Under the pieces are notes generated by a model, which was given only the letters and a program-made list of their open reading frames with translations, was not told where the DNA came from and did no database searches. This document shows positions 4,147-33,614 of a stretch of DNA of 37,514 bases, in pieces. Positions within the stretch are counted from its first letter, which is position 1. Each line of letters opens with the position of its first letter. Both the position numbers and the translations under genes were made by a program. This stretch comes from Candidatus Dadabacteria bacterium (lineage in GTDB: Bacteria > Desulfobacterota_D > UBA1144 > Nemesobacterales > Nemesobacteraceae), in the NCBI GenBank assembly GCA_026706695.1, contig JAPOYE010000083.1:1-37514 (forward strand). The letters are read 5' to 3'.

Positions 4147-4524
4147 TTGAAAAAACTAGCTTTTGCCGCTACTTCAGCCCTTTTTCTTTTATCATGCATG
4201 CCTCCCGGGACCGGGCAGGGAGGAACGGGGGGAACGCCGTTCTCGGCCATACTCCCGTTCGTTTTAATATTCGCCCTTTTTTACTTTCTTATAATAAGAC
4301 CTCAGCAGCGCCAGAGCCGTGAGCGCAAGAAGATGCTCGCCGAGGTAAAAAGAGGCGACGGCATTGTTACCACCGGTGGCATATACGGCAGGGTGATAAA
4401 CGTCGACGGGGACGACCTCACGGTCGAGATAGCTAAAGGCATCAACATAAAAATGGTCCGCTCCGGGATCTCGGAGAAGACCGATTCCGGGGCAGCTGAA
4501 GGCAAACCCAAAGGGGGCGGCTGA
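4147..4524 (+). CDS. yajC: Preprotein translocase subunit YajC
   Basis: The product is 125 residues. The YajC hallmark is present: one membrane helix (about residues 34-52, PFVLIFALFYFLIIRPQQ) followed by the basic motif RPQQRQSRERKKML. A small cytoplasmic beta domain carries VKRGDGIVTTGGIYGRV and ends in a Gly/Lys-rich tail. YajC associates with SecD and SecF at the SecYEG channel in the inner membrane. The start is a TTG immediately after the tgt stop, with a good ribosome site. The N-terminus is unusual: residues 1-17 form an extra signal-like helix ending LFLLSC, which resembles a lipobox although the -2 Leu is off consensus, followed by a Gly/Pro-rich spacer. Either an added signal peptide or a second membrane segment is possible. 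Gene order tgt-yajC-secD-secF supports the call. Confidence 0.93.
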   Translation: MKKLAFAATSALFLLSCMPPGTGQGGTGGTPFSAILPFVLIFALFYFLIIRPQQRQSRERKKMLAEVKRGDGIVTTGGIYGRVINVDGDDLTVEIAKGINIKMVRSGISEKTDSGAAEGKPKGGG

Positions 4525-4528
4525 TTAG

Positions 4529-6130
4529 ATGAAAGGCGTGTCCCGTCTTTGGATTACCGTTATCGCTCTTTTCTCTTTTCTCTGCGTAATACTCCTTACG
4601 CCTACCTTCATGGGCGACAAGCTTCCCTCGTGGTGGGGAAAGGTTTTCTCAAGCAAGGGGATAAGCCTCGGGCTTGATCTTGAGGGAGGGATATTTCTTC
4701 TTCTGGGAGTGGAGACCGAAGAGGGCGTGGAGCAGGAAATGCTCATAGTCGAGGAGTCCCTGGTATCGAAATTCAGGCAGAACAGGATTCTCGTTAAGAA
4801 CTCCTCTGTCTCGGACGGAACCCTCACGATCGGCCTTTTCCCGGGCGCGGATATGGACAAGGCGCTTGAGGTTGCGCGCGACGAGTTTGAAAAGGTGGCG
4901 AATATAAGTTCCGACGGCTTTCTGGTCAGGCTCTCGATAAAATCGTCCTACGTGGATGAGCTTGAGCGAAACTCAATAGAGCGGGTCCGCCACATAATAG
5001 AGAACCGCGTTAAGGATTTCGGCCTCGTCGAGCCGAGCATACAGAAATCAGGCGAAGACAGGATCCTGGTGCAAGTGCCGGGCGCTTCCAAAAAAGACAG
5101 GCAGAGAATAGTTAACCTGATCAAAAAGACGGCCGTTTTGGAATTCAAAATCGTAAGGGCGGCCGGGGCGTCGCAGGAGAACCTGCTCGCTGCCGCCGAA
5201 GCCGGGACCAAGAGGCAGCTCGCGGAAAAAGGTTTTGCCATCCACGAGGGAGACACCGGGAACGAGAACGAGAAGTTCTTCCTGACTGAAAGGCTTGCGA
5301 GCGTGACGGGGGAATATATCTCGGATGCCCGGATAACGTTTGACAATTACGGAAACCCCGCGGTCGGATTCACGTTCAGGGGGGAGGGCGCGAGCAAGTT
5401 CGGCAAGCTTACCGAGGCTAACATCGGCGAACGTCTGGCGATAGTTCTTGACGGCGTGATAAAGTCGGCTCCCACAATCCAGGACAAAATAACCTACCAG
5501 GGCACGATAACCGGCACTTTCACCACGGAGGAGGCAAAAGACCTCGCGCTTATCCTGAGATCAGGCTCCCTTCCGGTTCCCGTGAGGGTCGAGCAGGAAA
5601 GGACCGTAGGTCCTTCCCTGGGGCAGGACTCGATAGAGAAGGGGAGATTCTCCATGATCGTCGGCGGCATACTTGTTCTGGTGTTCATGGTCTTTTTCTA
5701 CAGGATGCAGGGTGTTGTAGCGAACGCCGCGCTTGTGCTCAACATACTTTTCATAATGGGTTTTCTCTCCGCTTTCGGCGTTACGCTTACGCTTCCCGGC
5801 ATAGCGGGACTCGTTTTGACGCTCGGCATGGCGGTTGACGGAAACATCATCATATTCGAGAGAATAAAAGAGGAACTCATGGCGGGCAAAACCGCGGTTC
5901 ACTCGATTGAAACGGGATACGCGAGATCCGTCTGGACCATACTTGACGCGAACGTCACGACACTTCTTACGGCGCTTATACTTTTCTGGCTGGGCACCGG
6001 CCCCGTAAAAGGTTTTGCGGCAACGCTTTCAATCGGAATAGTGTCGACCGTTTTCAGTAACCTGATTGTGGCGAGAGTCTTTACGAACATGCTTTACAGA
6101 GACAAGAACCTAACGGAAGTAAGTATCTGA
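4529..6130 (+). CDS. secD: Protein translocase subunit SecD
   Basis: SecD uses the proton gradient, together with SecF, to pull exported proteins across the inner membrane on the periplasmic side. The protein has 533 residues. A first membrane helix at about 8-26 is followed by the family motif LGLDLEGG at 47-54. The large periplasmic P1 region contains RIENRVK-like and VQVPGASKKDR segments, and AIVLDGVIKSAP precedes the C-terminal five-helix domain from about residue 370. That domain has DSIEKGR, the FYRMQG turn, and MAVDGNIIIFERIKEEL with the conserved Asp. It starts 4 bases after yajC and is followed by secF 10 bases on, so one transcript is likely. Motifs and length are all normal. Confidence 0.97.
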   Translation: MKGVSRLWITVIALFSFLCVILLTPTFMGDKLPSWWGKVFSSKGISLGLDLEGGIFLLLGVETEEGVEQEMLIVEESLVSKFRQNRILVKNSSVSDGTLTIGLFPGADMDKALEVARDEFEKVANISSDGFLVRLSIKSSYVDELERNSIERVRHIIENRVKDFGLVEPSIQKSGEDRILVQVPGASKKDRQRIVNLIKKTAVLEFKIVRAAGASQENLLAAAEAGTKRQLAEKGFAIHEGDTGNENEKFFLTERLASVTGEYISDARITFDNYGNPAVGFTFRGEGASKFGKLTEANIGERLAIVLDGVIKSAPTIQDKITYQGTITGTFTTEEAKDLALILRSGSLPVPVRVEQERTVGPSLGQDSIEKGRFSMIVGGILVLVFMVFFYRMQGVVANAALVLNILFIMGFLSAFGVTLTLPGIAGLVLTLGMAVDGNIIIFERIKEELMAGKTAVHSIETGYARSVWTILDANVTTLLTALILFWLGTGPVKGFAATLSIGIVSTVFSNLIVARVFTNMLYRDKNLTEVSI

Positions 6131-6140
6131 GGGTGCGCGA

Positions 6141-7052
6141 GTGCGGATTATAGGAAAACTGAGTTACGATTTTGTGGATAAGATGGGGGGTGCGATGCGT
6201 ATTTCCATCGCGCTTGCGGTTATCTCCATCGCCTCCCTTCTGTATCACCAGGGGCCTAACTGGGGAGTAGAGTTCACCGGTGGAACGGAGATACATATAA
6301 AGCTCGCAAAGAGCCTTGAGACCCAGGTTCTCAAAGATGCGCTTGCCGAGAACGGCTTTCCCTCGGAATCGGTTCAGCGCTTCGGTCTTCCGGGCGACAA
6401 CGAGCACCTGATACAGTTTGCGCCGGAACTTGCGACTTTTGACCAGATAGGAGATTTCCAGAAAAAGCTGGAAGACCTCTTCGCCACGTCAGAAAATTTC
6501 GAGGGAGCCTCCATCCAGAGGATAGACTACATAGGTCCCAGGGTGGGTAAGGAGCTCATAACCAAGGCCCTTTTATCCATACTGATTGCGTGCGTCGGCA
6601 TACTCGCCTACCTGGTGTTTCGGTTTGAATTCGGTTTTGCCGTGGGGGCGGTTATCGCCCTTATTCACGATACCCTTATAACCGTTGGGGCCATATCGCT
6701 CGCGGACAAGGAGTTCACCCTTGCGATCGTAGCCGCGCTTCTGACAGTGATAGGTTATTCGGTTAACGACACAATCGTCATATTTGACAGGATAAGGGAG
6801 AACATGGGGAATTTCCCCGAAAAGGGCTTCAGGGAGCTTGTTAACGATGGAATAAGCCAGACGCTCTCGCGTACGTTGCTCACGGCTATAACGGTATTCA
6901 TAGTACTCCTTCCGCTCTTTTTCCTCGGCGGCTCGGTAATACACGATTTCGCGTTTACCCTTATGGTCGGGGTCATTATAGGAACCTACTCGTCGATTTT
7001 CGTGGCGAGTGCCTTCGTGGTCTACTGGAGAAAAAGAAAGGCGGCCGGATAG
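6141..7052 (+). CDS. secF: Protein translocase subunit SecF
   Basis: This is the partner of SecD in the inner-membrane SecDF complex. The product is 303 residues from a GTG start, within the normal range. After a first membrane helix (about 19-37) comes GVEFTGGTE at 42-50, the family's FTGG signature. The periplasmic loop includes IDYIGPRVGKEL. The C-terminal membrane domain has FRFEFGFAVGAVIALIHD and VIGYSVNDTIVIFDRIREN, then LSRTLLTAITVF, all conserved across SecF. It ends with a basic WRKRK tail facing the cytoplasm. It is the last gene of the plus-strand run; 115 bases without a clear terminator separate it from pheS. Confidence 0.97.
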   Translation: MRIIGKLSYDFVDKMGGAMRISIALAVISIASLLYHQGPNWGVEFTGGTEIHIKLAKSLETQVLKDALAENGFPSESVQRFGLPGDNEHLIQFAPELATFDQIGDFQKKLEDLFATSENFEGASIQRIDYIGPRVGKELITKALLSILIACVGILAYLVFRFEFGFAVGAVIALIHDTLITVGAISLADKEFTLAIVAALLTVIGYSVNDTIVIFDRIRENMGNFPEKGFRELVNDGISQTLSRTLLTAITVFIVLLPLFFLGGSVIHDFAFTLMVGVIIGTYSSIFVASAFVVYWRKRKAAG

Positions 7053-7167
7053 AAGCCGCGCTTTGGCGGATGGCCCGTCAAAAGCTCCATCCGTGCTTTG
7101 ATAATCGCTCCCATAACGGTTAAATATTTTCCGTTTTGTTTCTTAAAACACACAACTCGTTCATATT

Positions 7168-8187
7168 ATGCAGGAAGCGCTTGAGCAGATAAGAAACCAG
7201 ATAGGTTCTGATCTTGAGGGGGTCTCTACGGAAGCCGATCTCGTCAGGGTGAAGGCAGGCTACGTCGGGAAGAAGGGATCCCTCACGCAGCTTCTGAAAT
7301 CCATGAAGGACCTTCCCGCTTCCGAGCGCCGCCAGGCGGGCATTCTCATAAACAGAACCAAGAAGGAAGTCGAGGAGCTGATCGAGAGAAAATCCGATGA
7401 GATAAAGCGCAGAGCGATGGATGAAAAGCTCCTTGAGGAGGCAACCGACTTCACTCTCCCGGGGCGTGGAATGCCAGTCGGAGCCAAGCATCCCATAACC
7501 CAGGTGATGGAGCGCATCGTCTATGATTTTGAGAGGATGGGATTTGAAGTCGCCGAGGGGCCCGAGGTCGAGCTTGATTACTACAATTTCGAGGCGCTTA
7601 ACATACCGAAAAACCACCCCGCAAGGGACATGCAGGACACTTTCTACATAACCGATGACATGGTGTTGAGAACCCATACCTCGCCGGTGCAGATACGGAT
7701 CATGCAGACCCAGCAGCCCCCCGTGAAGATAATAGCTCCCGGAAAGGTTTACCGGTGCGACAGCGACGTTTCCCACACCCCTATGTTCCACCAGATAGAA
7801 GGTCTTCTCGTTGACAAGGGGATAACTTTCGGAAACTTAAAATCCGTCATCATTCAGTTCGTCAAACTCACTTTCGGCGACGATACGAACGTAAGGTTCC
7901 GCCCGAGTTTCTTTCCCTTCACCGAGCCCAGCGCCGAGGTGGACATAGAGTGTCAGATATGTTCCGGCAACGGATGCAGGGTATGCAAGGGCACCGGCTG
8001 GCTTGAAATAATGGGATGCGGAATGGTCGACCCCGCGGTTTTCTCAAGCGTTAACTACAACACTGACATCTATTCGGGTTTCGCCTTCGGCATGGGGGTT
8101 GAGAGAATCGCCATGCTTAAGTACGGGATAAACGACATAAGGCTTTTCTTTGAGAACGATGTAAGGTTTTTGAGGCAGTTCGTATAG
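7168..8187 (+). CDS. pheS: Phenylalanyl-tRNA synthetase alpha subunit
   Basis: This is the catalytic subunit of the alpha2-beta2 enzyme that charges tRNA-Phe. The product is 339 residues, normal for PheS. Residues 1-80 form the tRNA-binding coiled coil with YVGKKGSLTQLL. The class II core follows: GFEVAEGPEVE, NIPKNHPARDMQDTFY (motif 1 region), LRTHTSPVQIR, YRCDSDVSHTPMFHQIEG (motif 2), RPSFFPFTEPSAEVD, and GFAFGMGVERIAML (motif 3). A CQICSGNGCRVCKGTGW insert with four cysteines is the zinc-binding-like loop seen in many PheS proteins. The start at 7168 has no good ribosome site, but the length fits. The usual partner pheT is not adjacent; dcd follows instead, so the beta subunit must be encoded elsewhere. 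Confidence 0.96.
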   Translation: MQEALEQIRNQIGSDLEGVSTEADLVRVKAGYVGKKGSLTQLLKSMKDLPASERRQAGILINRTKKEVEELIERKSDEIKRRAMDEKLLEEATDFTLPGRGMPVGAKHPITQVMERIVYDFERMGFEVAEGPEVELDYYNFEALNIPKNHPARDMQDTFYITDDMVLRTHTSPVQIRIMQTQQPPVKIIAPGKVYRCDSDVSHTPMFHQIEGLLVDKGITFGNLKSVIIQFVKLTFGDDTNVRFRPSFFPFTEPSAEVDIECQICSGNGCRVCKGTGWLEIMGCGMVDPAVFSSVNYNTDIYSGFAFGMGVERIAMLKYGINDIRLFFENDVRFLRQFV

Positions 8188-8356
8188 TTTTTAGGGGCGG
8201 CTGTCAGATGGGAATCGTTTTTTATGGTTCGCTTCATTTTACTATATAAAACCATCAAATTAGACAACATTTCGAAGTTTTGAAAATATTTCTCATATGA
8301 GAATGATCCGGATCAAACGTTAAGCAAAATTCGAGAGAACAGAAAGGAGAACATCG

Positions 8357-8920
8357 ATGGGAATCAAACCTGATCACTGGATAAGGAAAATGGCGCTTGA
8401 GCACAAGATGATAGACCCTTTTGTAGAGGGGCAGGTAAGCAAGGGCGTTATATCGTACGGCCTTTCCTCTTACGGCTACGATATCAGGGTGAGCAACGAG
8501 TTCAAGGTGTTTACCAACCTTCACAGCGCCGTCGTTGACCCTAAGAATTTCGATCCCAACTCCTTTGTGGAGATAGAGAACGATTACTGTATAATTCCGC
8601 CGAACTCCTTCGCGCTCGCAAAAACCGTTGAGTATTTCAGGATACCCAGAAGCACCGTTACCGTGTGCGTCGGTAAATCCACTTACGCAAGGTGCGGGAT
8701 AATCGTTAACGTCACCCCGTTCGAACCCGAATGGGAGGGATACGTGACGCTTGAAATTTCGAATACGACCCCCATTCCCGCGAAGATATATTCAAACGAG
8801 GGAATAGCCCAGGTGCTCTTTTTTGAGGGTGATGAGGAATGCCAAATTTCGTACGCGGACAAGAAGGGAAAATACCAGAAACAGACCGGCATAACGCATC
8901 CGAAAATTTCCCAGGGGTAG
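8357..8920 (+). CDS. dcd: dCTP deaminase
   Basis: The enzyme deaminates dCTP to dUTP and ammonia, feeding dTMP synthesis. The product is 187 residues, close to the 193 of E. coli Dcd. AGAAAGGAG lies a few bases before the ATG. Motifs: [10 protein letters not shown] near residue 37, a [17 protein letters not shown] strand, [13 protein letters not shown], and [18 protein letters not shown], which contains the catalytic Glu and the trimer-interface residues. The C-terminal [10 protein letters not shown] segment, which closes over the nucleotide, is present. It is a standalone gene with 169 bases upstream. Dcd-like enzymes can act in phage defence and this one lies beside AbiE, but its sequence is that of the ordinary housekeeping enzyme. 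Confidence 0.95.
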
Positions 8921-8956
8921 CATGACGGCCGGTGTTTTGCTGCTGATTTTAACGCC

Positions 8957-9823
8957 TTAAGAGAAAAGACCGGCAATCTGCACGCGCAGGTCGCTGAGCA
9001 CCATCTTCAATGCGGGCGGATCCGGCACGATGTCTCCAAGTGAGCGTTCCCAGTCCCTGCCGACGAGGGCAAGCAAGCCGTCGTCAAAAAAATCCTCAGC
9101 GCCTGTGAACATGATGTTCTTTGCCGAGCACTTGTTCCGCAGGAAAGAACTGAAATCGGTAAAGTCCATGTCATCCCTGCGTGCGCTCAATATATGCCAG
9201 AGGTCATAGTAATCGCGAGCACGTGGTCTGACCCATCTGCTGCTTTTAAATCTGTCAACGTTTTGCAATACCGCCCGTAGTTTTTCCGCGACAACTTCTT
9301 CAAGGGAATATGTATTGATTTCCGCTTCGAGCGGTTCGTCGTAATGATGAATGATTTTTCGCCTTTGCTGGGGCCTGAGAATTTTTTCATCCATGGTGAT
9401 TTCCACCATAATCCTGGTAAGCGGATAATTATGCCAAGGGAGGCGGGCCCGTATTTTGAAAGCTTCCTGATTTCCAGGGTGAGGGCGCCTTTCCTTATAG
9501 CGTTTACAGACAATATTCACGGGTTCTTTCAGGAGTCTCTGTTGAACGATCTCGCACGCTTCCCGAATGGAATTTTCCATGTTATCGCCTCTGGGCGTCG
9601 TGGGGAGTCCGGTAAAATCCAGGTCCTCGGAAAAGCGATAATCATCGAAATAACATTTCCTGAGAGCCGTACCCCCTTTGAAGACAAGGGTATCGGAAAG
9701 TGCCGGTACTTGGCTGATACCGGCGAGAATCCAGGAAAGCAGATAATCACGTTCGATAACATGCCACGGAATGCCGGTGGACTTGTGCGCCTGCGAAATA
9801 AGGGAGTAAGCTGATTTTACCAT
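8957..9823 (-). CDS. abiEii: AbiEii toxin, nucleotidyltransferase of type IV TA system
   Basis: The product is 288 residues from the ATG at 9823. The core is the DNA polymerase-beta-like fold of the AbiEii/MenT family: LVFKGGTALRKCYF near residues 46-59 and RFSEDLDF at 63-70 give the G-G-T and paired acidic metal ligands, and a later EEVVAEKLRAV holds the family Lys. RDYYDLWHI is also characteristic. These toxins transfer nucleotides, in some cases to tRNA ends. The ATG overlaps the abiEi stop (ATGGTAA), so translation is coupled. A GTG at 9874 with GAGAAAGGG before it is an alternative start adding 17 residues. It is convergent with dcd. Nothing suggests inactivation. The exact target is not readable from sequence. 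Confidence 0.92.
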   Translation of the reverse strand: MVKSAYSLISQAHKSTGIPWHVIERDYLLSWILAGISQVPALSDTLVFKGGTALRKCYFDDYRFSEDLDFTGLPTTPRGDNMENSIREACEIVQQRLLKEPVNIVCKRYKERRPHPGNQEAFKIRARLPWHNYPLTRIMVEITMDEKILRPQQRRKIIHHYDEPLEAEINTYSLEEVVAEKLRAVLQNVDRFKSSRWVRPRARDYYDLWHILSARRDDMDFTDFSSFLRNKCSAKNIMFTGAEDFFDDGLLALVGRDWERSLGDIVPDPPALKMVLSDLRVQIAGLFS

Positions 9824-10626
9824 GAGTCGATGTTCCCGGGCAGATTTTCCTGTATCATCCAGCGGCTGTTGCACGGTCCCTTTCTCGGCCCCGTGGGATC
9901 AAGCTTGCGATAGCCCTTGACGGGCAGTTCCGCAAGTTCGCTGAATTCGGAAGAATCATATCCCCAGTATTCAAGAATCCAACCCAGTCGTTTTGCCGCC
10001 GCGCCGCTCAGTCGCAGAGCGTATTCGACTATGCGCTTGATATTCAGTCTGTCTTCTGTTTTGTTAAAGGCGTAAAGCACTTCCTCAAAGCCGCCGCAGT
10101 ACTGCGGACGGCAGAGACCGTCCAGAAGGGTACGTTCCATATCCGTTATTGATACCAGAGTGTTGCCGATCAGTATTTCTTCCGTACCGAAGAAATGCTC
10201 GGGTTTCACCTGAATGAACCTGTATGAAGCGTTCCCGCTCTCATAACCCCTGTAGGACATTCCTCTGCCTTTAATCCCTCGAACGCGCGGGAAGGAACTT
10301 TCCGTGGTTGTCAGGACGAAAATCGTTCTCGGGATCTGTTCTGTCAAGCCGTGGTGATTCATGGCCAGCCAGTGAGAGATCGCCGCGGGGCTTGCCAGAT
10401 TCATGGCAATCTCAAACTCGTGCACGGGAAAGATTCCAGGAACGGACAGTGCAAACAGCCCCCTGCGGATCGGGACTATCCAGTCATTTTGACGCAGGTG
10501 GTAAAGAGCTTCGCATAGGTACGAATCCTTGAGACCAACGCGGGGGGCCAGTTCCCGCGCCCGTTCTGTGGAGAATATCCTGTCTCCCTGGGAAGCCAGA
10601 AGCTTGACCAGTTCAATTCCGACCAT
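9817..10626 (-). CDS. abiEi: AbiEi family antitoxin (transcriptional regulator)
   Basis: The product is 269 residues. Residues 1-65 form a winged helix-turn-helix typical of the AbiEi antitoxin domain (VGLKDSYLCEALYHLRQNDWIVPIRRGLFAL). The next region, ISHWLAMNHHGLTEQIPRTIFVLTT, and the C-terminal AbiEi domain with SITDMERTLLDGL are family hallmarks. Known members repress their own operon through the winged helix and neutralise AbiEii by a type IV mechanism. Here the gene precedes and overlaps abiEii by 7 bases on the minus strand. About 73 bases upstream lies a strong promoter enclosed in an inverted repeat, which would suit autorepression. The start lacks a good Shine-Dalgarno site. The call is firm; regulation is inferred. 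Confidence 0.9.
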   Translation of the reverse strand: MVGIELVKLLASQGDRIFSTERARELAPRVGLKDSYLCEALYHLRQNDWIVPIRRGLFALSVPGIFPVHEFEIAMNLASPAAISHWLAMNHHGLTEQIPRTIFVLTTTESSFPRVRGIKGRGMSYRGYESGNASYRFIQVKPEHFFGTEEILIGNTLVSITDMERTLLDGLCRPQYCGGFEEVLYAFNKTEDRLNIKRIVEYALRLSGAAAKRLGWILEYWGYDSSEFSELAELPVKGYRKLDPTGPRKGPCNSRWMIQENLPGNIDSW

Positions 10627-10705
10627 GGACTTTTTTAGATTTCTTTCGGTGTTAATTTGATTTTCTCTAATTGTTACTTAATATAATCTATCATGTTTGA
10701 TATAA

Positions 10706-10734
10706 ATAATATGGCAAAAATTAGATAATGTCAA
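10706..10734 (-). promoter_or_regulatory. abiE operon promoter
   Basis: Read on the minus strand, TTGACA (10734-10729) is separated by exactly 17 bases from TATTAT (10711-10706). That is a perfect -35 and a -10 with one mismatch. The predicted start of transcription is near 10699, leaving about 73 bases of leader before the abiEi ATG at 10626. Confidence 0.8.
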
Positions 10735-10749
10735 ATTTTTGCCATATTA
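10707..10749. repeat. 16-bp perfect inverted repeat, probable AbiEi operator
   Basis: The arms are TAATATGGCAAAAATT (10707-10722) and its exact reverse complement (10734-10749), with 11 bases between. The left arm covers most of the -10 box and the right arm begins at the -35 box of the abiE promoter, so a bound dimer would block RNA polymerase. AbiEi proteins are known to bind inverted repeats in their own promoters. A smaller repeat, TATCA-TGTT-TGATA (10689-10702), lies over the predicted transcription start. Confidence 0.7.
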
Positions 10750-13508
<2,759 letters not shown>

Positions 13509-13577
13509 TAGACCGAACTGGGAGTTGTATGGGAAGGGAACTATCAGTTCTATAGACCAGAATCGTTGCAAGCCCAA

Positions 13578-15311
13578 ATGAAAATATCTCAGAACACCCT
13601 AACTCTTCCGCCCAATATCGGGCGGACCATCGTCAGAAAAAGTGCCCTAATAGCTTGCCCGCTATTAGGAACGGATAAATTTATCAAGTTTTGCAAGGAC
13701 CGAAGCCTGCCGCTAAATCGAAAGCGTTTGATTGGGCTGGAACGACTTGGGCTATTTGCACCGGTCTACCGAGTACGAACACCGCCACGAGCAAAGCGAT
13801 CTTTCGTGCTTCTATCTATAAAGGAGAATGACTGGTTTAGGAAAGGGTGGGCTTGGGACACGACCTCCATCCAAGATTCCCATACTGTTCCTGACACTAA
13901 AGACCAGAATCAAGAGGGCTACTACTCAATCTTTCAGCTTGCGCACCTCGACTTCATCTTGAACAGCATGACTCTTTCTGTGCATATGGACGGTTTTCTG
14001 GAAACCAAAGAGACAAGAGATATAGACTGGAATAAGAATGGCAAGAAATGGATGGAGATCTTTGAAGACAGCGCAAACATGCTACGCGAGCATGAGCACC
14101 GTCGCAGTCGGGCTTTGCTCTGCCAGTTCATTTCGAATCGCTACTATCCCTACACTCAGAGCGATCAACGCACTGGGAAAGTTTCTGTTAAGTTATACGT
14201 GGACAGATGGATTATTGTTAATCCAATGAACTGGGATTGGGAGGAATATGCCCGTTGCTGGAAACCGCGTCAGACCGAAAAGCTATTCCAACTTACCGCT
14301 GAGAAGTTGCGTCGTGCTTATGAGGGGTTGGCGGTCATGCAAGAAAGCTGTGATCCGATGGCGCGCTGGTATCAGTTAATCCAATTTATACCCATTAGAG
14401 AGCGGAACAAGTTAAAAGGTAATGCACTCAAAGCCGAGGCATTGCGTACTGGTGCACATATGCTACGACTTTTATATAAAGATCTGTATGGTGATAACCT
14501 ACCACATCCGAACGAAGTTACTGGCACCATAATCAATCATGTGCCCGAACTGGAAGTCCGTCGTGATACGCGACGTTATTTGGAGTTTGTTGCGAACCGT
14601 TATGGTGTAAACCCTCAACCCAAATTATGCCTGCTTGTTGAAGGTCCTTCAGAGGAACTAGTGATCCAGAGAATATTCGATAGTTATTTTGGAGCGCATC
14701 CTGGTAAATTCGGGATCGAAATCATTCCTCTCGGTAGTGTGGATAATGCCACTGGTGGGAGACAAGACCGATACCGTGCGATATTACGTCTCGTGGACTA
14801 TCTGCATCATAATCAGACATTCACATTTCTCATTCTCGATAATGAAAACTATGCGAAACGACTGAAGAACGCAGCAAAAGAGGCGAAGTCGATCCATGGA
14901 ATACGTCGATATGTTACCCGGGGGGAATACATCAAGATTTGGTGTCAATCGTTTGAACTGGATAATTTTTCAGCAACAGAGGTCGCTGCAGCTCTTAGCG
15001 TGGTGGCACAGGATCGAGCATGCTTTACTCGTTCAGAAGTTATTACATGTACAAAGGACAAGAATCCGAATGCTCGCTTGAGTGAACTTTATAAAAAGAA
15101 GACCGGTGGAGGACTTTCGAAGCTTAAATTGGCGGAGCAGTTGGTCAATAGAATGCTGGACAAGAAATCGCAAAGAAAAATCAATAACCGCCCGCTTGTG
15201 AAAACATTGGAGCGGGTAACTAAGTTGGCCGCGCGCAACCCCTTCCCTACGATGCTTGATGTCTGGGAGCGGAATCAGTCTTCTAAACTTCTTTCCAAGA
15301 GAGGACGTTAA
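13578..15311 (+). CDS. TOPRIM-domain protein of unknown function (OLD-like nuclease module)
   Basis: The product is 577 residues from the ATG; a TTG at 13566 would add four, and neither has a clear ribosome site. Residues below use the longer numbering. The C-terminal half has a TOPRIM fold of the OLD/Gabija type: LCLLVEGPSEE (354-364) with the catalytic Glu359, IEIIPLGSVDN (384-394), FLILDNE (421-427) with Asp425 and Glu427, a Glu in SFELDNFS (462-469), and a basic helix LSKLKLAEQL near 521. The N-terminal 340 residues contain a helical start with RLIGLERLGLFAPVYRV, then many Trp/Tyr/Arg, and match no family I know. There is no Walker A, so the usual OLD ATPase is missing. Codon use (CGA, CGT, CTA, TTA) differs from neighbouring genes rich in AGG, which suggests transfer. 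A defence role is inferred, not shown. Confidence 0.72.
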   Translation: MKISQNTLTLPPNIGRTIVRKSALIACPLLGTDKFIKFCKDRSLPLNRKRLIGLERLGLFAPVYRVRTPPRAKRSFVLLSIKENDWFRKGWAWDTTSIQDSHTVPDTKDQNQEGYYSIFQLAHLDFILNSMTLSVHMDGFLETKETRDIDWNKNGKKWMEIFEDSANMLREHEHRRSRALLCQFISNRYYPYTQSDQRTGKVSVKLYVDRWIIVNPMNWDWEEYARCWKPRQTEKLFQLTAEKLRRAYEGLAVMQESCDPMARWYQLIQFIPIRERNKLKGNALKAEALRTGAHMLRLLYKDLYGDNLPHPNEVTGTIINHVPELEVRRDTRRYLEFVANRYGVNPQPKLCLLVEGPSEELVIQRIFDSYFGAHPGKFGIEIIPLGSVDNATGGRQDRYRAILRLVDYLHHNQTFTFLILDNENYAKRLKNAAKEAKSIHGIRRYVTRGEYIKIWCQSFELDNFSATEVAAALSVVAQDRACFTRSEVITCTKDKNPNARLSELYKKKTGGGLSKLKLAEQLVNRMLDKKSQRKINNRPLVKTLERVTKLAARNPFPTMLDVWERNQSSKLLSKRGR

Positions 15312-15330
15312 ATCATTTGGAAATTATATA

Positions 15331-16380
15331 CTAAAGGATTCCCGAAACGATAAGAAAACTTATGAGAAGCAGGTTAGCTACTGCTAAGGGGAAAAGCCTC
15401 TTCCAGCCGAGGCCCATTACCTGATCATATCTGAACCTTGGCAAAGTCCATCTTACCCAGATAAACAGGAAGAGTAAGAAAAGGACTTTGCCGATAAAGA
15501 CAGCCGGCGGCAGATACCAATGTGTGTTGATATCAATGCCGAACCACCCTCCGAACGGTAAGGGATACCAACCACCCAAAAACAAACAAGTTATCATGCA
15601 CGAAGCAACTATCATATGAGTATATTCAGCCATGAAGAACATTGCAAATTTCATACTGCTGTATTCGGTGTGATAGCCGGCGACTATCTCGGGCTCGGCT
15701 TCCGGCATATCAAACGGGAGCCTGTTGGTTTCGGCAAACGCGGAAACTACGAAAACCACAAAGCCTATAAAGGACGGGATTAGGAACCACATCTGCTCCT
15801 GCGCTTCGATTATGTCCCCTAGGCGAAGCGATCCCGTTATGGCGATTACCCCCAGTATGGACAGGCCCAGAGCGAGTTCATAGCTTATCATCTGCGCTGC
15901 GGCCCGAAGTCCTCCTAGAAGAGAGTACTTGCTGTTAGAACCCCACCCGCCGAGCACCACGCCGTATACGCTGAGCGAACTTATTCCGAGCACGTAGAGA
16001 AGGCCGATGTTTATGTCGGCTATCTGGAACCTTATGAACACGGGATCCTGGAGAAATCCGAAGAGGTCCGTGTGAACCCCCTTTCCTATGGGAATCACTG
16101 CGAGAGCCGCAAGGGCCGTGACGAGCGCGAACGCCGGGGCCATTATATACATGGTCTTGTTCGCTTTCGGGGGAATAATGTCTTCTTTGAAGATGAACTT
16201 GATGCCGTCTGCAAGAGGCTGGAGCAGTCCCGAGGGTCCAACCCTGTTCGGTCCGTAGCGGTCCTGTATGAAGGCGCTTAACCTTCTTTCCGCGAAGGTT
16301 AGATAGGCAACAACCGTCAGGACGACGAAAAAGACAAGCGCTATCTTTGCAACCGCTATTGATATCAGAAGTGGAGTCAT
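15331..16380 (-). CDS. nuoH: NADH-quinone oxidoreductase subunit H
   Basis: This inner-membrane subunit links the quinone site to the proton-pumping arm of complex I. The product is 349 residues with eight or nine hydrophobic helices, a normal length. Signatures: ERRLSAFIQDRYGPNRVGP near residues 30-48, LQPLADGIKFIFKEDIIP, and the quinone-chamber loop AFAETNRLPFDMPEAEPE, followed by YHTEYSSMKFAMFF. Its ATG overlaps the nuoG stop as ATGA. The next expected gene, nuoI, is absent: the opposite-strand TOPRIM gene ends 19 bases from the nuoH stop. All visible motifs are intact, so the protein is probably functional with subunits encoded elsewhere. Confidence 0.96.
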   Translation of the reverse strand: MTPLLISIAVAKIALVFFVVLTVVAYLTFAERRLSAFIQDRYGPNRVGPSGLLQPLADGIKFIFKEDIIPPKANKTMYIMAPAFALVTALAALAVIPIGKGVHTDLFGFLQDPVFIRFQIADINIGLLYVLGISSLSVYGVVLGGWGSNSKYSLLGGLRAAAQMISYELALGLSILGVIAITGSLRLGDIIEAQEQMWFLIPSFIGFVVFVVSAFAETNRLPFDMPEAEPEIVAGYHTEYSSMKFAMFFMAEYTHMIVASCMITCLFLGGWYPLPFGGWFGIDINTHWYLPPAVFIGKVLFLLFLFIWVRWTLPRFRYDQVMGLGWKRLFPLAVANLLLISFLIVSGIL

Positions 16381-17984
16381 CTGCCCGCGCCGTGTTCAAG
16401 AACTTTTCCGACGGTACCTATCCTGTCATAGCTAATCCCCCCGTATCCGGGGATCTTGAGGCTTATGTCATCCATCACTTCCGACGCGGAGCCGTAGCTG
16501 AACAGGGTCTTGTCGAGCCGCTCCCCAATCATGCACAGTATTTCGCATGCGGACTTAGCATTCCCGGGAGGAGGTATGGCCTTTCTTATCCTCTGAACCC
16601 GTCCGGCGTCGTTCGTGAAAGTCCCGTTTTTTTCATAGGGACTTGCCGCTGGAAGTATTACGTGAGCGTGTCTCGCGGTCTCGGTGAGTCTGTAGTCGAT
16701 GACGGCAAGGAAGCTGATTTTCTCAAGAGCCCGGGAAAGAGCGTACTTCTCGTGGCCTGAAACCATCTCGAACAGGTCCGCCTCGATGACTACTAGCGTA
16801 TTGATCCTGCCGGCAAGCAGCGAGTCAATCGTAGCTTTCGTATCGTCTCCGTTTGCCTGCGTCATGAAATTCCTGGCTCCGGCGCTGTTTGGATACGGGT
16901 CGTTGCTTACGAGATCGAATTTTTTCTCTATTTCCTCGGTTCCCACGGCGCAGATTACCAGGCAATCTCCAAGTGTGGACGAAAGCTTCGCCGCGAGAAA
17001 CATTTCCTCATTTGTAAGCCTGGCCGATCCCGCAATCGCACAGGTGCCCGCGCCGCCTGACTTTATTCCAGAGAGCCTGGCCCCGACGCTGTTAATCGCG
17101 TTTTCCCAGGAGGCTATCTCGTAGTCCCCGTCACTTTTCATTATGGGGTCTTTAAGTCTGGTCGACTTCTGGACCTTCTTGTAGTCGAATCTTCCCCTGT
17201 CGCATATCCAGTGTCCGTTAACTTCCTCGTTTATTCTCGGGCGTATGCGGGAGACTTCTCCTTTTCTCGGATCGACGCCCACGGTAATGTTGCACCCGGT
17301 GCTGCAGAGAGAACACACGGAGTCTGTGAATTTCATGTACCAGACCCTCTCTTCGTGAAGGTTGTCTTTGGGGAGCAGGGCTCCGACCGGGCAGATGTCA
17401 ATCACGTTTCCCGCAAGTTCATTATCGAGCGTTTTCCCGGGGAAAACGGAGATTTTCTTCCGAAAGCCTCTTCCGGTGGTCCCAAGTTCGTGGGTTTTCG
17501 TTACCTCATCCGTGAAGCGCACGCATCTGGTGCACATGATGCACCTGTTGGCGTCGTACATTATGCGGTCGCTCAGGTAGCTTTTCTGCCTTACCTTCTT
17601 GTTCTCGGGACCGCCGACCCTGCTGTAGCCGGGACCGTGATCGAAAGTGGTCATCTGGAGCGGGCATTCCCCTCCCTTGGCGCATATGGGACAGTCAAGC
17701 GGGTGGTTTATCAGAGTGAACTCAACGGCTGCTTTTCTGGCCTCAAAAGCTTTTTCGGTGTCCGTCTTGACCACTAGGCCGTCTCTTACGGTCGTGTTGC
17801 ACGCGGGGAGTACCTTGGGAACGCCTTCCACTTCCACAAGGCATTGCCTGCACTGGGCGACCACGCTCAGCGAAGGGTGATAGCAGAAATGAGGGATCTC
17901 TATCCCGGCCACCGCGGCAGCCTGGATGACGTTTATTCCGTCGTCCACATCAAGTTCAATTCCGTCGATGGTTATCTTGGGCAT
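16377..17984 (-). CDS. nuoG: NADH-quinone oxidoreductase subunit G (short form)
   Basis: This is the iron-sulfur subunit of the peripheral arm of complex I. The cluster ligands read clearly: C34, C45, C48 and C62 for the [2Fe-2S] centre; H94, C98, C101 and C107; then C148, C151, C154 and C198. A further set, C224, C227, C231 and C261, corresponds to the extra N7-type cluster found in some bacteria. The molybdopterin-fold region follows from about residue 275 to the end. At 535 residues it is much shorter than E. coli NuoG (908) or the roughly 690-780 of many others, so the C-terminal fold is reduced. The end looks natural because it overlaps nuoH by ATGA. nuoF and nuoE do not precede it; tatA does. 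Confidence 0.93.
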   Translation of the reverse strand: MPKITIDGIELDVDDGINVIQAAAVAGIEIPHFCYHPSLSVVAQCRQCLVEVEGVPKVLPACNTTVRDGLVVKTDTEKAFEARKAAVEFTLINHPLDCPICAKGGECPLQMTTFDHGPGYSRVGGPENKKVRQKSYLSDRIMYDANRCIMCTRCVRFTDEVTKTHELGTTGRGFRKKISVFPGKTLDNELAGNVIDICPVGALLPKDNLHEERVWYMKFTDSVCSLCSTGCNITVGVDPRKGEVSRIRPRINEEVNGHWICDRGRFDYKKVQKSTRLKDPIMKSDGDYEIASWENAINSVGARLSGIKSGGAGTCAIAGSARLTNEEMFLAAKLSSTLGDCLVICAVGTEEIEKKFDLVSNDPYPNSAGARNFMTQANGDDTKATIDSLLAGRINTLVVIEADLFEMVSGHEKYALSRALEKISFLAVIDYRLTETARHAHVILPAASPYEKNGTFTNDAGRVQRIRKAIPPPGNAKSACEILCMIGERLDKTLFSYGSASEVMDDISLKIPGYGGISYDRIGTVGKVLEHGAGR

Positions 17985-18046
17985 AGAGAGGACTCAAGGG
18001 AAAAGCGATTAGCGTAAATATTATCAGAGAAAGTGCTTTTGACAAG

Positions 18047-18262
18047 TCAGACGTTTTCGTCCTTTTTGGGTGTCTGAAACTTGGTTTTCTCGTCCATATC
18101 GTCTTCAAATTCTATGTTCTTTTTTATATCGTCCTTGGCTCTTTGAAGCTCTCTTATCCCCCTGCCAAGGGTTCTTGCGACCTTGGGCAACTCCTTGGGC
18201 CCCAGAACCACAAGTGCGATGAAAAGTATTATGAGTAATTCAGCTGTGCCGAGTCCGAACAT
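18047..18262 (-). CDS. tatA: Sec-independent translocase protein TatA/TatE
   Basis: The product is 71 residues. A single membrane helix at about 6-21 (GTAELLIILFIALVVL) is followed by the hinge GPKELPK and an amphipathic helix with VARTLGRGIRELQRAKDD, then an acidic-basic tail. This is the TatA/E pattern; TatB is usually longer and has a different hinge. TatA oligomers form the pore through which folded proteins pass. No tatB or tatC lies in the window. It sits between an MFS gene and nuoG in the minus-strand run. Confidence 0.9.
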   Translation of the reverse strand: MFGLGTAELLIILFIALVVLGPKELPKVARTLGRGIRELQRAKDDIKKNIEFEDDMDEKTKFQTPKKDENV

Positions 18263-18304
18263 CGTTTCTTTCTCCCAGTGTCTAATATAACCAAAACCGG
18301 AAGA

Positions 18305-19537
18305 CTAAGTGGCGGTTTTGTTAATTTTTTTTACGGGAGTCCTTATAAGTAGTACTAAGAAGGCCGTTGTAAAAGACGCCGCCATCGCCACGATAAGGGA
18401 TTTCTGGTAGCTCTGGGTCATGTCGAAGAGAAGTCCGGAAACAAGGGGGCCGCTGATCGCGGCGAGGGAGAATCCGGTGCCAAAAATACCGAAGATGCTT
18501 CCAAGTGACTTAAGACCGTAGAATTTTCCAAGTATAGTCGGAAACATCGGCACCCACCCGCTGTAGAAAAGGCCGAACAGAAAGCCGAACAGGTAAAGCG
18601 ACCATACCTCCGCGACCGACAGAATGAGGATTATGGATGTTGCCTGGAAGAAATAGCAGACAAACAGTATGCGCACGTCGCTTATGAAGTTGGTCACGAC
18701 TCCCGAGAAGAAAATCCGCCCGATAATGCTTCCAACCCCTATGAAGGCGGGTGCCCCTGCCGCGACGAGAGGGGATATTCCCGCTTCTACGGAGAAGTTA
18801 AAAAGATGTACGATAATAATGAGAAAAGTGTTAAACCCGAAGAAAAACGCGATGTACATAAGCCAGAAGCTTGAGTGTGAAAACGCTTCCTTTGCGCTCC
18901 AGTCAGAAGCTCCCGTATCTTTCGCCGCATCCTCAGAGTTCTCTCCGTACGGTCTGAGTCCCATTTCCTCGGGACGGTTTTTCACCAGAAGCGCGGAACA
19001 CAGTATCGCGGTAAAAATTACAGAGAGGTAAACAAGGGCGCGCTCGTAACCGAATGATTCTATAAGCCAGGTGGTAAGCGGGTTTACCACCAGACCGCTT
19101 ACAGGAACCCCCGCCGTGGCGATTCCTATTGCAAGCGCCCTTTTCTTAACGAACCACCTGCTGATGACGGTGACGGGCAGTATGTAGAGAAACCCGTCTC
19201 CTATTCCCACCATCACGCTGTAGGTCAGGTAGAGTTCCCATGTGGTTTCGGCATAAGCTGAAAGAAGAAAGCCGAATGCTCCTACAAGTCCTCCAAAGAA
19301 GGTTAGGTACCTCGCGTCGTGGGTGTCTATGAGCCTTCCCGCGAACACGAATGAAAAGGCCATGCAGACGCATCTCAGGGAAAAAAATGACGATCCGACG
19401 GTATTTGAGAGACCGAAAGCTTCGTTCAGGTAAGGGAGAAATATCCCGAACGAGTAGAGAACCATCCCGTCAAGCGTTATGAGCAGGTGTCCTGCTATGA
19501 CTATGACCCATCCGTAAAAAAATCTGTTTCTAAGCAT
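18305..19537 (-). CDS. MFS transporter, oxalate/formate- or monocarboxylate-type
   Basis: The product is 410 residues with about 12 hydrophobic helices. It starts FFYGWVIVIAG, the opening typical of the OFA/monocarboxylate-porter branch of the major facilitator superfamily. Motif A-like residues appear after helix 2 (AGRLIDTHDARYL), and the central cytoplasmic loop with NRPEEMGLRPYG is also characteristic. Such carriers move small organic acids by proton symport or exchange. The substrate cannot be read from sequence. It lies 42 bases downstream of hisS and 42 bases upstream of tatA, so it is probably in the same transcript, with no functional link visible. Confidence 0.88.
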   Translation of the reverse strand: MLRNRFFYGWVIVIAGHLLITLDGMVLYSFGIFLPYLNEAFGLSNTVGSSFFSLRCVCMAFSFVFAGRLIDTHDARYLTFFGGLVGAFGFLLSAYAETTWELYLTYSVMVGIGDGFLYILPVTVISRWFVKKRALAIGIATAGVPVSGLVVNPLTTWLIESFGYERALVYLSVIFTAILCSALLVKNRPEEMGLRPYGENSEDAAKDTGASDWSAKEAFSHSSFWLMYIAFFFGFNTFLIIIVHLFNFSVEAGISPLVAAGAPAFIGVGSIIGRIFFSGVVTNFISDVRILFVCYFFQATSIILILSVAEVWSLYLFGFLFGLFYSGWVPMFPTILGKFYGLKSLGSIFGIFGTGFSLAAISGPLVSGLLFDMTQSYQKSLIVAMAASFTTAFLVLLIRTPVKKINKTAT

Positions 19538-30584: not shown

Positions 30585-33500
30585 ATGAAGCTAATTTATC
30601 ACGCCAAAGAACTCACTTTTAAAAATCTTTTCAAAAAATACGGGCTTAACCCAAGCGACGAAGCGACCCTGTTTCTTCTTCCAGGGGTATCGGTTGTACA
30701 GGAAATAGAAGATTGCTACTCTGGCGAAGGGGTGTGGGGGAAAAACCTGCTTACGTTCAGCGAACTTTCTGATTTTGTAAACGAGACATCCCCGAACCTC
30801 AAAAAGAAAAGGATATCGAGAACCCAGATACTGTCCGTAACCAGAAAAGCGGCGGAATTGGTCTCGGGCGACCTTGAGGTTTTCGGGGAGTTTTCGGAGA
30901 ACCGGGATTTTCTCGACGCCGCGGCTTCAATTATCTCGAAACTGAAGCAGGGCAGAATTTCGGTAAAGGAGCTTGCCGGGTCTGCCGGAACGATCAAGGC
31001 GCGGAGCCTGCGGAAAAAACTCTCGGATATAGGGCTTGTTTACGAAAAATACGAGGTGCTCATCTCTGAAAGAGGTTTTCTTGATGACGCGGATTCCGTC
31101 CGTGTAGTTTCAAAAGAGCTTGACCGGGAAGGAATTGACAGGTTTTTCCCGTCGGCGAAAAAACTTGCTGTCTTCGGTTTTTCCGACTTCACCCTCTGCG
31201 AGCTTGACGTGATAAAAAGCCTTTCCTCCCGGGTTTCCGAAACTTTCTTTTTCGTAAGCGATTTCGGCGGTCTTCACGAATACAGAGACTGCTTTGTGGA
31301 CAGGCTCGGTGAAGCCTCCGTTGTCTGCGAGGAGGATCTCGCCATGATCAGTCAACCTGGGGAGTCTGGACCGAGAACTGAGTTCAGAGATTTCTACGAT
31401 TCCCACGAAGAGATTGAACATGTCTCAAGGACGATAAAAAAGCTTGTTCTTGACAAGGAACGCAAGCCGTCTGATTTCAGGGTGCTTGTGAGGTCGGCGC
31501 AGCGCCGCGGCCGCTCAGTAGCAGGCATATTCGAGAAAAACGGAATCGCGGTCAACCTGAGAAACTGGGGTACCCTCGCGGAGAGCACGTACGGACAGAT
31601 TGTGCGTGATATTCTCTGTCTAAAGTCCGGCAATTTTCACAGAGACGACCTGATACGTCTTTTTCAGAGCCCGCTTTTCATCTTCTATCTGGGAGAGTCA
31701 GAGCCCGCGCGGCGATGCGTGAACCTTGTGAGAACGCTTTCATCCGCCAACGCGAAACACACGACCATAAGCGGAATCCCGGGCTGGAAAAGGGTTCTCG
31801 AACATATAACGAATCTTGACGGGCAACTTGCTTCCGTCGCGGGTGCCGTAAACCTCGCTCTTGACTCGGTGTCGTCTAAGTTCGGAAGAAAAAGCTTCGC
31901 CGCCATGACTTCTGACCTGAGAAAGGTTCTCTCAGAACTCAGGGCCTCTGAGAGTTCCGCGCTGCTTATAGAGAGAAACGCCGTGACAAGGGAGTGTTTC
32001 GATGAGTTTTTCTCTTTCCTGAGAGATCTTTCCTTTTCTCGCGGAGAGTTTGATTTCAGGGTTTCGGGCCCGGCGGAGTATCTGCGCCTTCTCGAAGATG
32101 CAATGATGGAGCGGACGGTACCCTACAAGACCCCCAGCGCGCCTGAGACGCGGAGGGTAAGCGTTACTGATTTTTCCTCGGCCCGCGGCACAAACCCTCG
32201 GTTTGTCTTTATGACGGGCCTTTCAGACGGCTCTTTTCCCTCTTCCCAGCCAGCTGACCCGGTACTGAAACCCAGGGAAAAAGTCGAAATAAACCGTGCG
32301 CTCGGAAAAACGGTTTTTGAGTCAGAAGGTCTTCACTACGAGAAGGAAAAGCATCTTTTTCTCTGTCTCTCCGCGGCGGCTTCAGAGAAAGCGTTTTTAT
32401 CCTGTTTCCGCTACGACCAGACATCAAAGGAGGTTAACCGCTCCGATTTCCTAGAGGAAACCATGGGCATCTCCGAAACCAGGCGCCCCGGGAGCGTCTG
32501 TGCGCCTGAGAACCTGTTCTCGCCTGAAGATATTTTTTTTCACGGTCTGTCATCCTCCCGAAACGGAGACGAGAGAATCTCCGGGACTCTTATTCGTCAC
32601 TACGGCTCTGACATTCTGGGCCATCTTCGCGCCGGTGTTTCCGCCGAGAGAAAGAGGCTTGAGGCGGATGGAAATTATAGTGAATTTGAAGGGGCGCTCC
32701 TTTCTCCTCCTCCGCGACCGGATGCTTTTTCTCCCACAGCGCTTGAAGATTACGGCACATGCCCCTTCATGTATTTTTCAAAAAGGATCTTGGGACTTTC
32801 AAATCCGCGGTCCCCGGACGAGCAAAGGGCCTCTCGGCTCGACCTGGGCTCGCTCGCCCACAGATTTCTCGGTGAGTTTATGGAGAGTCTTTTCTCCGGA
32901 AGCTCGGACCATGGTGGAGAAGGCGGCGTTGGAATGCTCTATGATGAGCTCAGGCAGAAGTATGAGAGCGGCACCGCGATTTTTTCCCATCTTCCCGAAA
33001 ATGTCGCGGCCGCGGAGAAAAAAGCATTTTTTGAACACACGCTCTGGAATTTTATCTATGATGAGCTGTGGAGAATCGAAAAGGATCTCCACGTGCCGTC
33101 ATTTTTTGAAAAGGAAGTGGAGTTCCGCATAGAGGATGTGAAAATCAGGGGGAAGGTTGACAGAGTTGATATCCAGAGTTCGTTTGAACACGGAACCAAG
33201 GTTGAAGTCGTGGATTACAAGATCGGAGGTATCGGGGAGAAGAAATTTTTTGACTTCAGGAATCTCCAGCTCCCTCTTTACCTAAGAGCGCTGCTTGATG
33301 AAGGAATGTATCCGGTCCGCGGATCCTATCGTTCAATCTCAAACCCGGAAAAGATCGTTTCGTCCAGAAAGATTTCCGACATTTCTTTTCGCGAAGCGGT
33401 TTCTCTCGCCGGATCCTACATAAGCTGCATAGAGAGAGGATTCTTTCCTCCGTACGTGGGGAAAAAACCGGCGGAACATGGCGAATACCTGCTTCAGATG

Positions 33501-33614
33501 CTGAAGGGTCAGCCTTGCTCATACTGTGATTACGCGGATCTCTGCAGGGTGAAAAACGGGACAAAAAGAAAAGCGGCAGCTTCTGCGGAGGAGGGCGATG
33601 CGGAGAATATCTGA
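30585..33614 (+). CDS. addB: AddB-type nuclease/helicase-like subunit with FeS cluster
   Basis: The product is 1009 residues. AddB partners AddA in double-strand break repair, degrading DNA ends and responding to Chi-type sites before RecA loading. The N-terminal half is a degenerate helicase fold (for example LFLLPGVSVVQEIE near residue 30, and an SVTDFSSARGTNPRFVFMTGLSDGSFP block near 525). The C-terminal part is a PD-(D/E)XK nuclease: GSLAHRFL, GKVDRVD, and VEVVDYKIGG near residue 875 with the Asp and Lys. Four cysteines for a 4Fe-4S staple are visible: C726 in CPFMYFSKR and C978, C981, C987 in CSYCDYADLC. addA starts inside its last 17 bases. Intact and typical. Confidence 0.9.
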   Translation: MKLIYHAKELTFKNLFKKYGLNPSDEATLFLLPGVSVVQEIEDCYSGEGVWGKNLLTFSELSDFVNETSPNLKKKRISRTQILSVTRKAAELVSGDLEVFGEFSENRDFLDAAASIISKLKQGRISVKELAGSAGTIKARSLRKKLSDIGLVYEKYEVLISERGFLDDADSVRVVSKELDREGIDRFFPSAKKLAVFGFSDFTLCELDVIKSLSSRVSETFFFVSDFGGLHEYRDCFVDRLGEASVVCEEDLAMISQPGESGPRTEFRDFYDSHEEIEHVSRTIKKLVLDKERKPSDFRVLVRSAQRRGRSVAGIFEKNGIAVNLRNWGTLAESTYGQIVRDILCLKSGNFHRDDLIRLFQSPLFIFYLGESEPARRCVNLVRTLSSANAKHTTISGIPGWKRVLEHITNLDGQLASVAGAVNLALDSVSSKFGRKSFAAMTSDLRKVLSELRASESSALLIERNAVTRECFDEFFSFLRDLSFSRGEFDFRVSGPAEYLRLLEDAMMERTVPYKTPSAPETRRVSVTDFSSARGTNPRFVFMTGLSDGSFPSSQPADPVLKPREKVEINRALGKTVFESEGLHYEKEKHLFLCLSAAASEKAFLSCFRYDQTSKEVNRSDFLEETMGISETRRPGSVCAPENLFSPEDIFFHGLSSSRNGDERISGTLIRHYGSDILGHLRAGVSAERKRLEADGNYSEFEGALLSPPPRPDAFSPTALEDYGTCPFMYFSKRILGLSNPRSPDEQRASRLDLGSLAHRFLGEFMESLFSGSSDHGGEGGVGMLYDELRQKYESGTAIFSHLPENVAAAEKKAFFEHTLWNFIYDELWRIEKDLHVPSFFEKEVEFRIEDVKIRGKVDRVDIQSSFEHGTKVEVVDYKIGGIGEKKFFDFRNLQLPLYLRALLDEGMYPVRGSYRSISNPEKIVSSRKISDISFREAVSLAGSYISCIERGFFPPYVGKKPAEHGEYLLQMLKGQPCSYCDYADLCRVKNGTKRKAAASAEEGDAENI

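Follow-up and report, generated by a model that had tools for sequence, protein, structure and literature searches.

The stretch of DNA analysed here (the window; 37,514 nt, contig JAPOYE010000083.1 of Candidatus Dadabacteria assembly GCA_026706695.1) carries, between gyrB and the convergent nuoH, a plus-strand open reading frame coding for a protein with a TOPRIM domain, open from TTG 13566 or ATG 13578 to a stop at 15311 (Table 1). The gyrB stop codon (13508) lies 57 bp before the TTG and 69 bp before the ATG, and the in-frame TTG would give an alternative product of 581 aa; the protein can be aligned with its homologues from about residue 6. Residue numbers below refer to the 577-aa frame beginning at the first ATG. 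A preliminary description of the locus, made from the sequence without database searches, counted from the TTG and its numbers are 4 higher: its Glu359, Asp425 and Glu427 are E355, D421 and E423 in the present frame.

The family is known from only six members. Besides the window protein these are a homologue in genome G013 of the same genus (L005, 70% identical), one in a cyanobacterial MAG (L002, 52%), two in further genomes of that cyanobacterial order (L038 and L039, 51%) and one in genome G034 of the same order as the window genome (L006, about 26%). Comparison of the window gene with the G013 copy gave dN of 0.19 and dS of 1.9 (dN/dS about 0.1, dS being near saturation), with purifying selection on both halves of the protein. 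Because the homologues keep the whole reading frame and dN is low against dS, the frame is beyond what chance would leave, and by these measures the gene looks functional, not decaying.

Table 1. Features of the TOPRIM gene and its flanks in the window
Feature	Position	Strand	Basis or remark
CDS of TOPRIM protein	13578..15311	+	577 aa from ATG
N-terminal module, residues 1-344	13578..14609	+	Without known family; mostly helical in very low-confidence model
TOPRIM domain, residues 345-455 (E355, E359; D421-N-E423)	14610..14942	+	Pfam PF20469, PADLOC GajA models
C-terminal helical domain, residues 456-577 (S458-F-E460, K508)	14943..15308	+	PADLOC GajA in L002; Foldseek
E355 and E359 codons	14640..14654	+	Counterparts of Bp OLD E400, E404; invariant in six
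D421-N422-E423 codons, DxD/E motif	14838..14846	+	Counterpart of D455/D457; invariant in six
S458-F459-E460 codons, metal B motif	14949..14957	+	Counterpart of T506/E508; invariant in six
K508 codon, proposed catalytic lysine	15099..15101	+	Invariant in six; assignment inferred
gyrB, host flank	11022..13508	+	Pfam DNA_gyraseB, Toprim and others
nuoH, host flank, convergent	15331..16380	-	90-99% identical within genus
Inserted segment	13511..15323		Against empty gyrB-nuoH gap of sister G009 (83 bp there)

The sole Pfam match of the protein was OLD-like_TOPRIM (residues 351-391, E = 6e-6; 27.1 bits against a curated cut-off of 23.2). Five of the six family members matched this model at E values up to 10, L005 scoring under the cut-off and L006 having no Pfam match. 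PADLOC GajA models, which are named 'AAA ATPase domain', matched the protein only from residue 314 on, and in L002 one of them spans residues 355-520 and thus extends into the helical domain. The beta-alpha order of a TOPRIM domain was visible in both the full-length and the C-terminal predicted models. In an alignment of the six members, the five homologues being 26-70% identical to the window protein, E355, E359, D421, N422, E423, S458, E460 and K508 were invariant. The TOPRIM core with its acidic residues and the further Glu in the SFELDNFS segment (now E460), both noted in the preliminary description, were borne out by the Pfam score and by this conservation.

These residues agree in order and local spacing with the active site of the Bp class 2 OLD protein (E400/E404/D455/D457/T506/E508/K562; PMC6755086), and they fit the TOPRIM of retron-Eco2 even more closely (E374/D378/D460/D462/S513/E515/K562; PMC12405507). 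The motif in the window protein reads DxE where DxD is the norm, and the second Glu is kept in L006 only with a two-residue gap that alters the E+4 spacing. Among K508, K515 and K517, only K508 is invariant in the six sequences; its distance from E460 is 48 residues, compared with 47 in Eco2 and 54 in Bp OLD, so that K508 is, from conservation and spacing and not from structure, the putative catalytic lysine. Taken together, the family match and the two-metal residues mark the C-terminal half as a predicted OLD-type TOPRIM nuclease domain.

Structure models were built by AlphaFold from two input sequences. The full-length model was poor (mean pLDDT 38.8) and gave nothing informative for the N-terminus, and that of residues 342-577 was modest (pLDDT 62). 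When the latter was compared with the PDB using Foldseek, ranks 1 to 5 were all C-terminal regions of class 2 OLD proteins (entries 6njw, 6njx, 6nk8 and 6njv; E = 0.009-0.04, probability 0.92-0.99), and the matches to GajA and Thermus OLD ranked below these. Since TM-scores to OLD were only 0.36-0.46, the ranking supports the sequence evidence but does not stand alone. Sequence profiles searched against the PDB gave chance matches only, and a Foldseek comparison with viral models produced no convincing match.

No family in Pfam, NCBIfam, PHROGs or PADLOC and no PDB sequence matched residues 1-344, and a scan of the homologues returned no family match for this part either. A MerR-like winged helix suspected by eye at residues 30-70 failed in hhalign comparisons with CueR, SoxR and ZntR. 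The module is nevertheless no less of a conserved unit, being conserved to the same degree as the nuclease half. Residues 301-360, just ahead of TOPRIM, share 68-80% identity across the four closer homologues and form the best conserved block in the five homologues, except for the first 37 aligned residues of L006; conservation at this junction fits, rather than proves, a regulatory interface. A motif scan found neither a Walker A or Walker B motif nor a GK[S/T] sequence anywhere in the protein, and the ATPase models of Pfam and NCBIfam did not match it either. The earlier statements that the protein has an unrecognised N-terminus of 340 residues and no ATPase motif therefore both stand.

OLD and GajA TOPRIM nucleases normally carry an ABC ATPase at the N-terminus and act in phage defence. 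Class 2 OLD and GajA proteins (Bp OLD, Xcc OLD, Bacillus GajA) share with the window protein the TOPRIM and helical nuclease half and the active-site set of E, E+4, DxD/E, S/T-x-E and a downstream Lys, but not the absence of the ATPase. Gabija additionally has a UvrD-like helicase gene, whereas none was recognised beside the homologues and the window gene is followed by nuoH; the nearest UvrD-family gene in the window (33553-36663) is 18 kb away. The latter is the second of two large plus-strand ORFs at 30585-36663, possibly AddAB and not the GajB of Gabija. Class 1 OLD proteins (P2 Old, Thermus OLD, YbjD) are likewise products of a single gene with a C-terminal TOPRIM, but have an N-terminal ATPase with Walker A and B motifs.

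OLD-type effectors that are free of an ATPase are already known, among them AriB of PARIS and retron-Eco2. AriB, a proposed class 4 OLD, is a TOPRIM nuclease effector with no ATPase in its own polypeptide, but it is partnered by the ABC ATPase AriA, adjacent or fused. Reading of the ORFs revealed no AriA-like adjacent ATPase gene in the six contexts (an AAA-like ORF without a match among the PADLOC models, L039:2011-3009, lies at a distance of about 5 kb), and the six genes here carry ~344 extra N-terminal residues. Retron-Eco2, a fusion of reverse transcriptase and TOPRIM, is the closest in architectural logic: its OLD-type TOPRIM, with an S-x-E motif and nearly the same Glu-to-Lys spacing, is silenced by an unrelated N-terminal module and without an ATPase. 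The N-terminus of Eco2, however, is a reverse transcriptase with msDNA; the window N-terminus had no Pfam match of that kind, and no reverse transcriptase was matched in the rest of the protein or recognised in the neighbouring ORFs. The window protein thus falls outside full-length OLD, Gabija, PARIS and retrons, the defining feature of each being absent, and searches of open-access papers for stand-alone, ATPase-less TOPRIM proteins with another N-terminus turned up no account of this family.

In codon use the gene departs more strongly from the remaining window sequence than any other of 23 ORFs (distance 0.472, against 0.157-0.407 for the others, with the window ORFs only as reference), and its GC3 is the lowest of the 23 (0.471). 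Its arginine codons include 13 CGA and 16 CGT with one AGG, compared with 30 AGG and one CGA/CGT in gyrB. In sister genomes G003, G006, G009 and G012, gyrB is followed by nuoH across an empty gap of 70-88 bp. The gene was found in just two of 14 genomes of the genus (the window genome and G013), at differing loci; because nuoH is 99% identical between these genomes and the two copies of the gene only 70%, the best reading is that each was acquired separately. Codon use, sporadic presence at different loci and precise empty sites in the sisters collectively indicate, at the level of sequence, that the gene is a foreign insertion between gyrB and nuoH, gained by horizontal transfer. The preliminary description had noted the deviant codon use and had suggested a possible horizontal acquisition.

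In the cyanobacterial genus the gene is similarly sporadic (two of ten genomes). Two members of the family came from an alignment search of 399 genomes in the cyanobacterial order, and the same type of search brought no new member from 386 cyanobacteria, from 387 relatives (mostly from outside the phylum) or from 245 genomes of a further phylum. With the window protein, the diverged L006 and the alignment as queries, plasmids, phages and IMG/VR yielded no homologues.

Restriction-modification genes adjoin four of the five other homologues (L002, L038, L039 and L006). L002 has an MmeI-type enzyme on one side and a BsuBI/PstI-type restriction-modification pair on the other, after which comes another MmeI-type gene. 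L038 has an MmeI-type gene before it and Fic-domain and PDC-M30A-like genes after it, L039 is divergent from HsdM/HsdS-like genes, and L006 is preceded by HsdM, HsdS and HsdR as well as a TPR gene; the MmeI-type gene beside L038 and the Hsd genes were named by reading of the sequence. The G013 copy is preceded by small ORFs that, also on reading, look like HicB/HicA and have no PADLOC match. No partner gene was constant across the six contexts, which suggests a one-gene system.

In the L002 region (4195-18728), the TOPRIM gene and the BsuBI/PstI-type pair are enclosed by the two MmeI-type genes, and a fragment of a nearby helicase gene is repeated at 12717-13388. This region looks like a duplicated, composite defence island.

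A likely defence role, as suggested in the preliminary description, is supported by these restriction-modification neighbours and by the defence genes found around gyrB in sister genomes. Restriction-modification genes are, at the same time, enriched in sponge symbionts generally (PMC8163846), and the carriers of the homologues may be sponge symbionts, judging by the name of the L002 MAG; such enrichment may weaken guilt by association.

Our best reading, with a probability of about 0.62, is that the gene encodes a horizontally acquired, single-gene nuclease effector of OLD type, in which the N-terminal module replaces the ABC ATPase as sensor and regulator. What sequence and model support directly is that the domain has its conserved active-site residues and the protein no ATPase motifs, that the gene is foreign, and that homologues have restriction-modification neighbours. 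The C-terminal ~235 residues would be the nuclease domain, made up of the TOPRIM and a helical part, and would contain the full two-metal active site, metal A being held by E355, D421 and E423, metal B by E359, S458 and E460, and K508 being placed at the scissile phosphate. Regulation and sensing, the task of the ATPase in OLD/GajA, would fall to the N-terminal ~344 residues, which would keep the nuclease silent by autoinhibition. Disturbance of the cell by a phage or another invader would make this module release the nuclease, which would then cut nucleic acid and stop the infection; defence, autoinhibition, trigger and substrate are all inferred. As a first guess the substrate would be host or phage RNA or tRNA, because the ATPase-free relatives AriB (PMC12409363) and Eco2 (PMC12405507) act on RNA. 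DNA nicking would be less likely, and is kept in view because class 2 OLD nicks and degrades DNA (PMC6755086).

Several observations count against this reading. The gyrB-nuoH gap also takes non-defence cargo in sister genomes, L006 breaks the E+4 spacing and is without a Pfam match, the family has only six members, and YbjD provides a precedent of an OLD protein whose TOPRIM can be dispensable for anti-phage activity (PMC13261556).

A bolder version, to which we would give somewhat less than even odds, is that the six proteins represent an undescribed class of OLD-type defence nuclease, combining an ATP-independent sensor of new fold and a complete two-metal TOPRIM in one polypeptide, self-sufficient against phage and shared by unrelated bacteria that are possibly symbionts of the same animal hosts. 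A review raises the questions of how many OLD classes there are and whether one OLD protein suffices to defend a cell (PMC10568477). OLD-type TOPRIM nucleases are the end point of several defence systems, and a rare single-gene form with the ATPase sensor swapped for an unknown conserved module would test the need for ATP sensing, and what else can gate such a nuclease.

The strongest competitor to the single-gene effector with a regulatory N-terminus, though a rather unlikely one, is a DNA-cutting nuclease of restriction type, whose N-terminal module would recognise a DNA sequence, modification or structure while the TOPRIM nicks or degrades, working beside restriction-modification. The nearness of the C-terminal half to class 2 OLD, a DNA nicker and degrader (PMC6755086), the restriction-modification enzymes adjoining four homologues and the basic net charge of the window protein (+33) all speak for it. 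This charge, however, is not conserved among homologues (-6 to +33), no dedicated methyltransferase travels with the gene, and no DNA-binding domain was recognised in the protein, a MerR-like assignment of residues 1-110 being unsupported against three MerR proteins.

Considerably less probable is a non-defensive nuclease of housekeeping, or of mobile-element-linked DNA repair or processing. TOPRIM nucleases also work in repair and RNA maturation, and the archaeal OLD-family ATPase Cran1 is reported to have, apparently, no role in antiviral defence (PMC12796447); a non-defensive function sits poorly with the sporadic, foreign and independently acquired genes, with their restriction-modification neighbours, and with an insert in the window that holds no transposase or conserved partner.

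The preliminary description had also raised a guard arrangement, in which the protein would monitor GyrB and fire upon phage inhibition of gyrase; apart from the co-directional position of the window gene 69 bp from gyrB, gene order speaks against this very improbable idea and brings it close to refuted, since the five other homologues all have neighbours other than gyrB, the gyrB of G013 is on another contig (C25) with different cargo, and the gap in the sisters holds unrelated genes or nothing.

These gap contents point to a permissive convergent gap and not to a functional link with gyrase. In G001 the gap contains an HNH_2 endonuclease gene (PADLOC HNH, 'Type II restriction enzyme'), in G013 a transposase-like fragment and an unknown ORF, and in G002 two large, secreted-looking ORFs; G004 and G011 are uninformative, their contigs ending too close to nuoH. 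An alpha (eukaryotic-type) carbonic anhydrase occupies it in G007 and G008 (L027 3174-3926, plus strand; L026 1190-1942, minus strand), so the gap is not solely a defence site. Genes similar to HNH_2 of G001 adjoin nuoH, on the same strand, in G005 and G010, in both of which the sequence analysed stops short of gyrB. The HNH_2 genes of these three genomes are at L029 3070-4020 (minus strand), L024 1051-1995 and, in L048, near the nuoH end.

The gyrB flanks of this genus appear to be a permissive region in which defence cargo is frequent but not exclusive. They resemble small hotspots of insertion, where a search might bring up more cargo. The other side of gyrB is empty (about 54 bp) in G006, G009 and G012 and holds other sequence in G002, G003, G007 and G008, while PglZ, BrxL and SduA-like genes are present in G001 and an AbiE pair in G013 and the window. 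The G001 genes form a BREX-type set (L053, G001:C139, 1-5458), and about 160 bp separate its end from the gyrB region, which lies downstream. The AbiEi/AbiEii type toxin-antitoxin pair of the window (8957-10626, minus strand) lies between dcd and gyrB, and its codon use is among the most atypical in the window.
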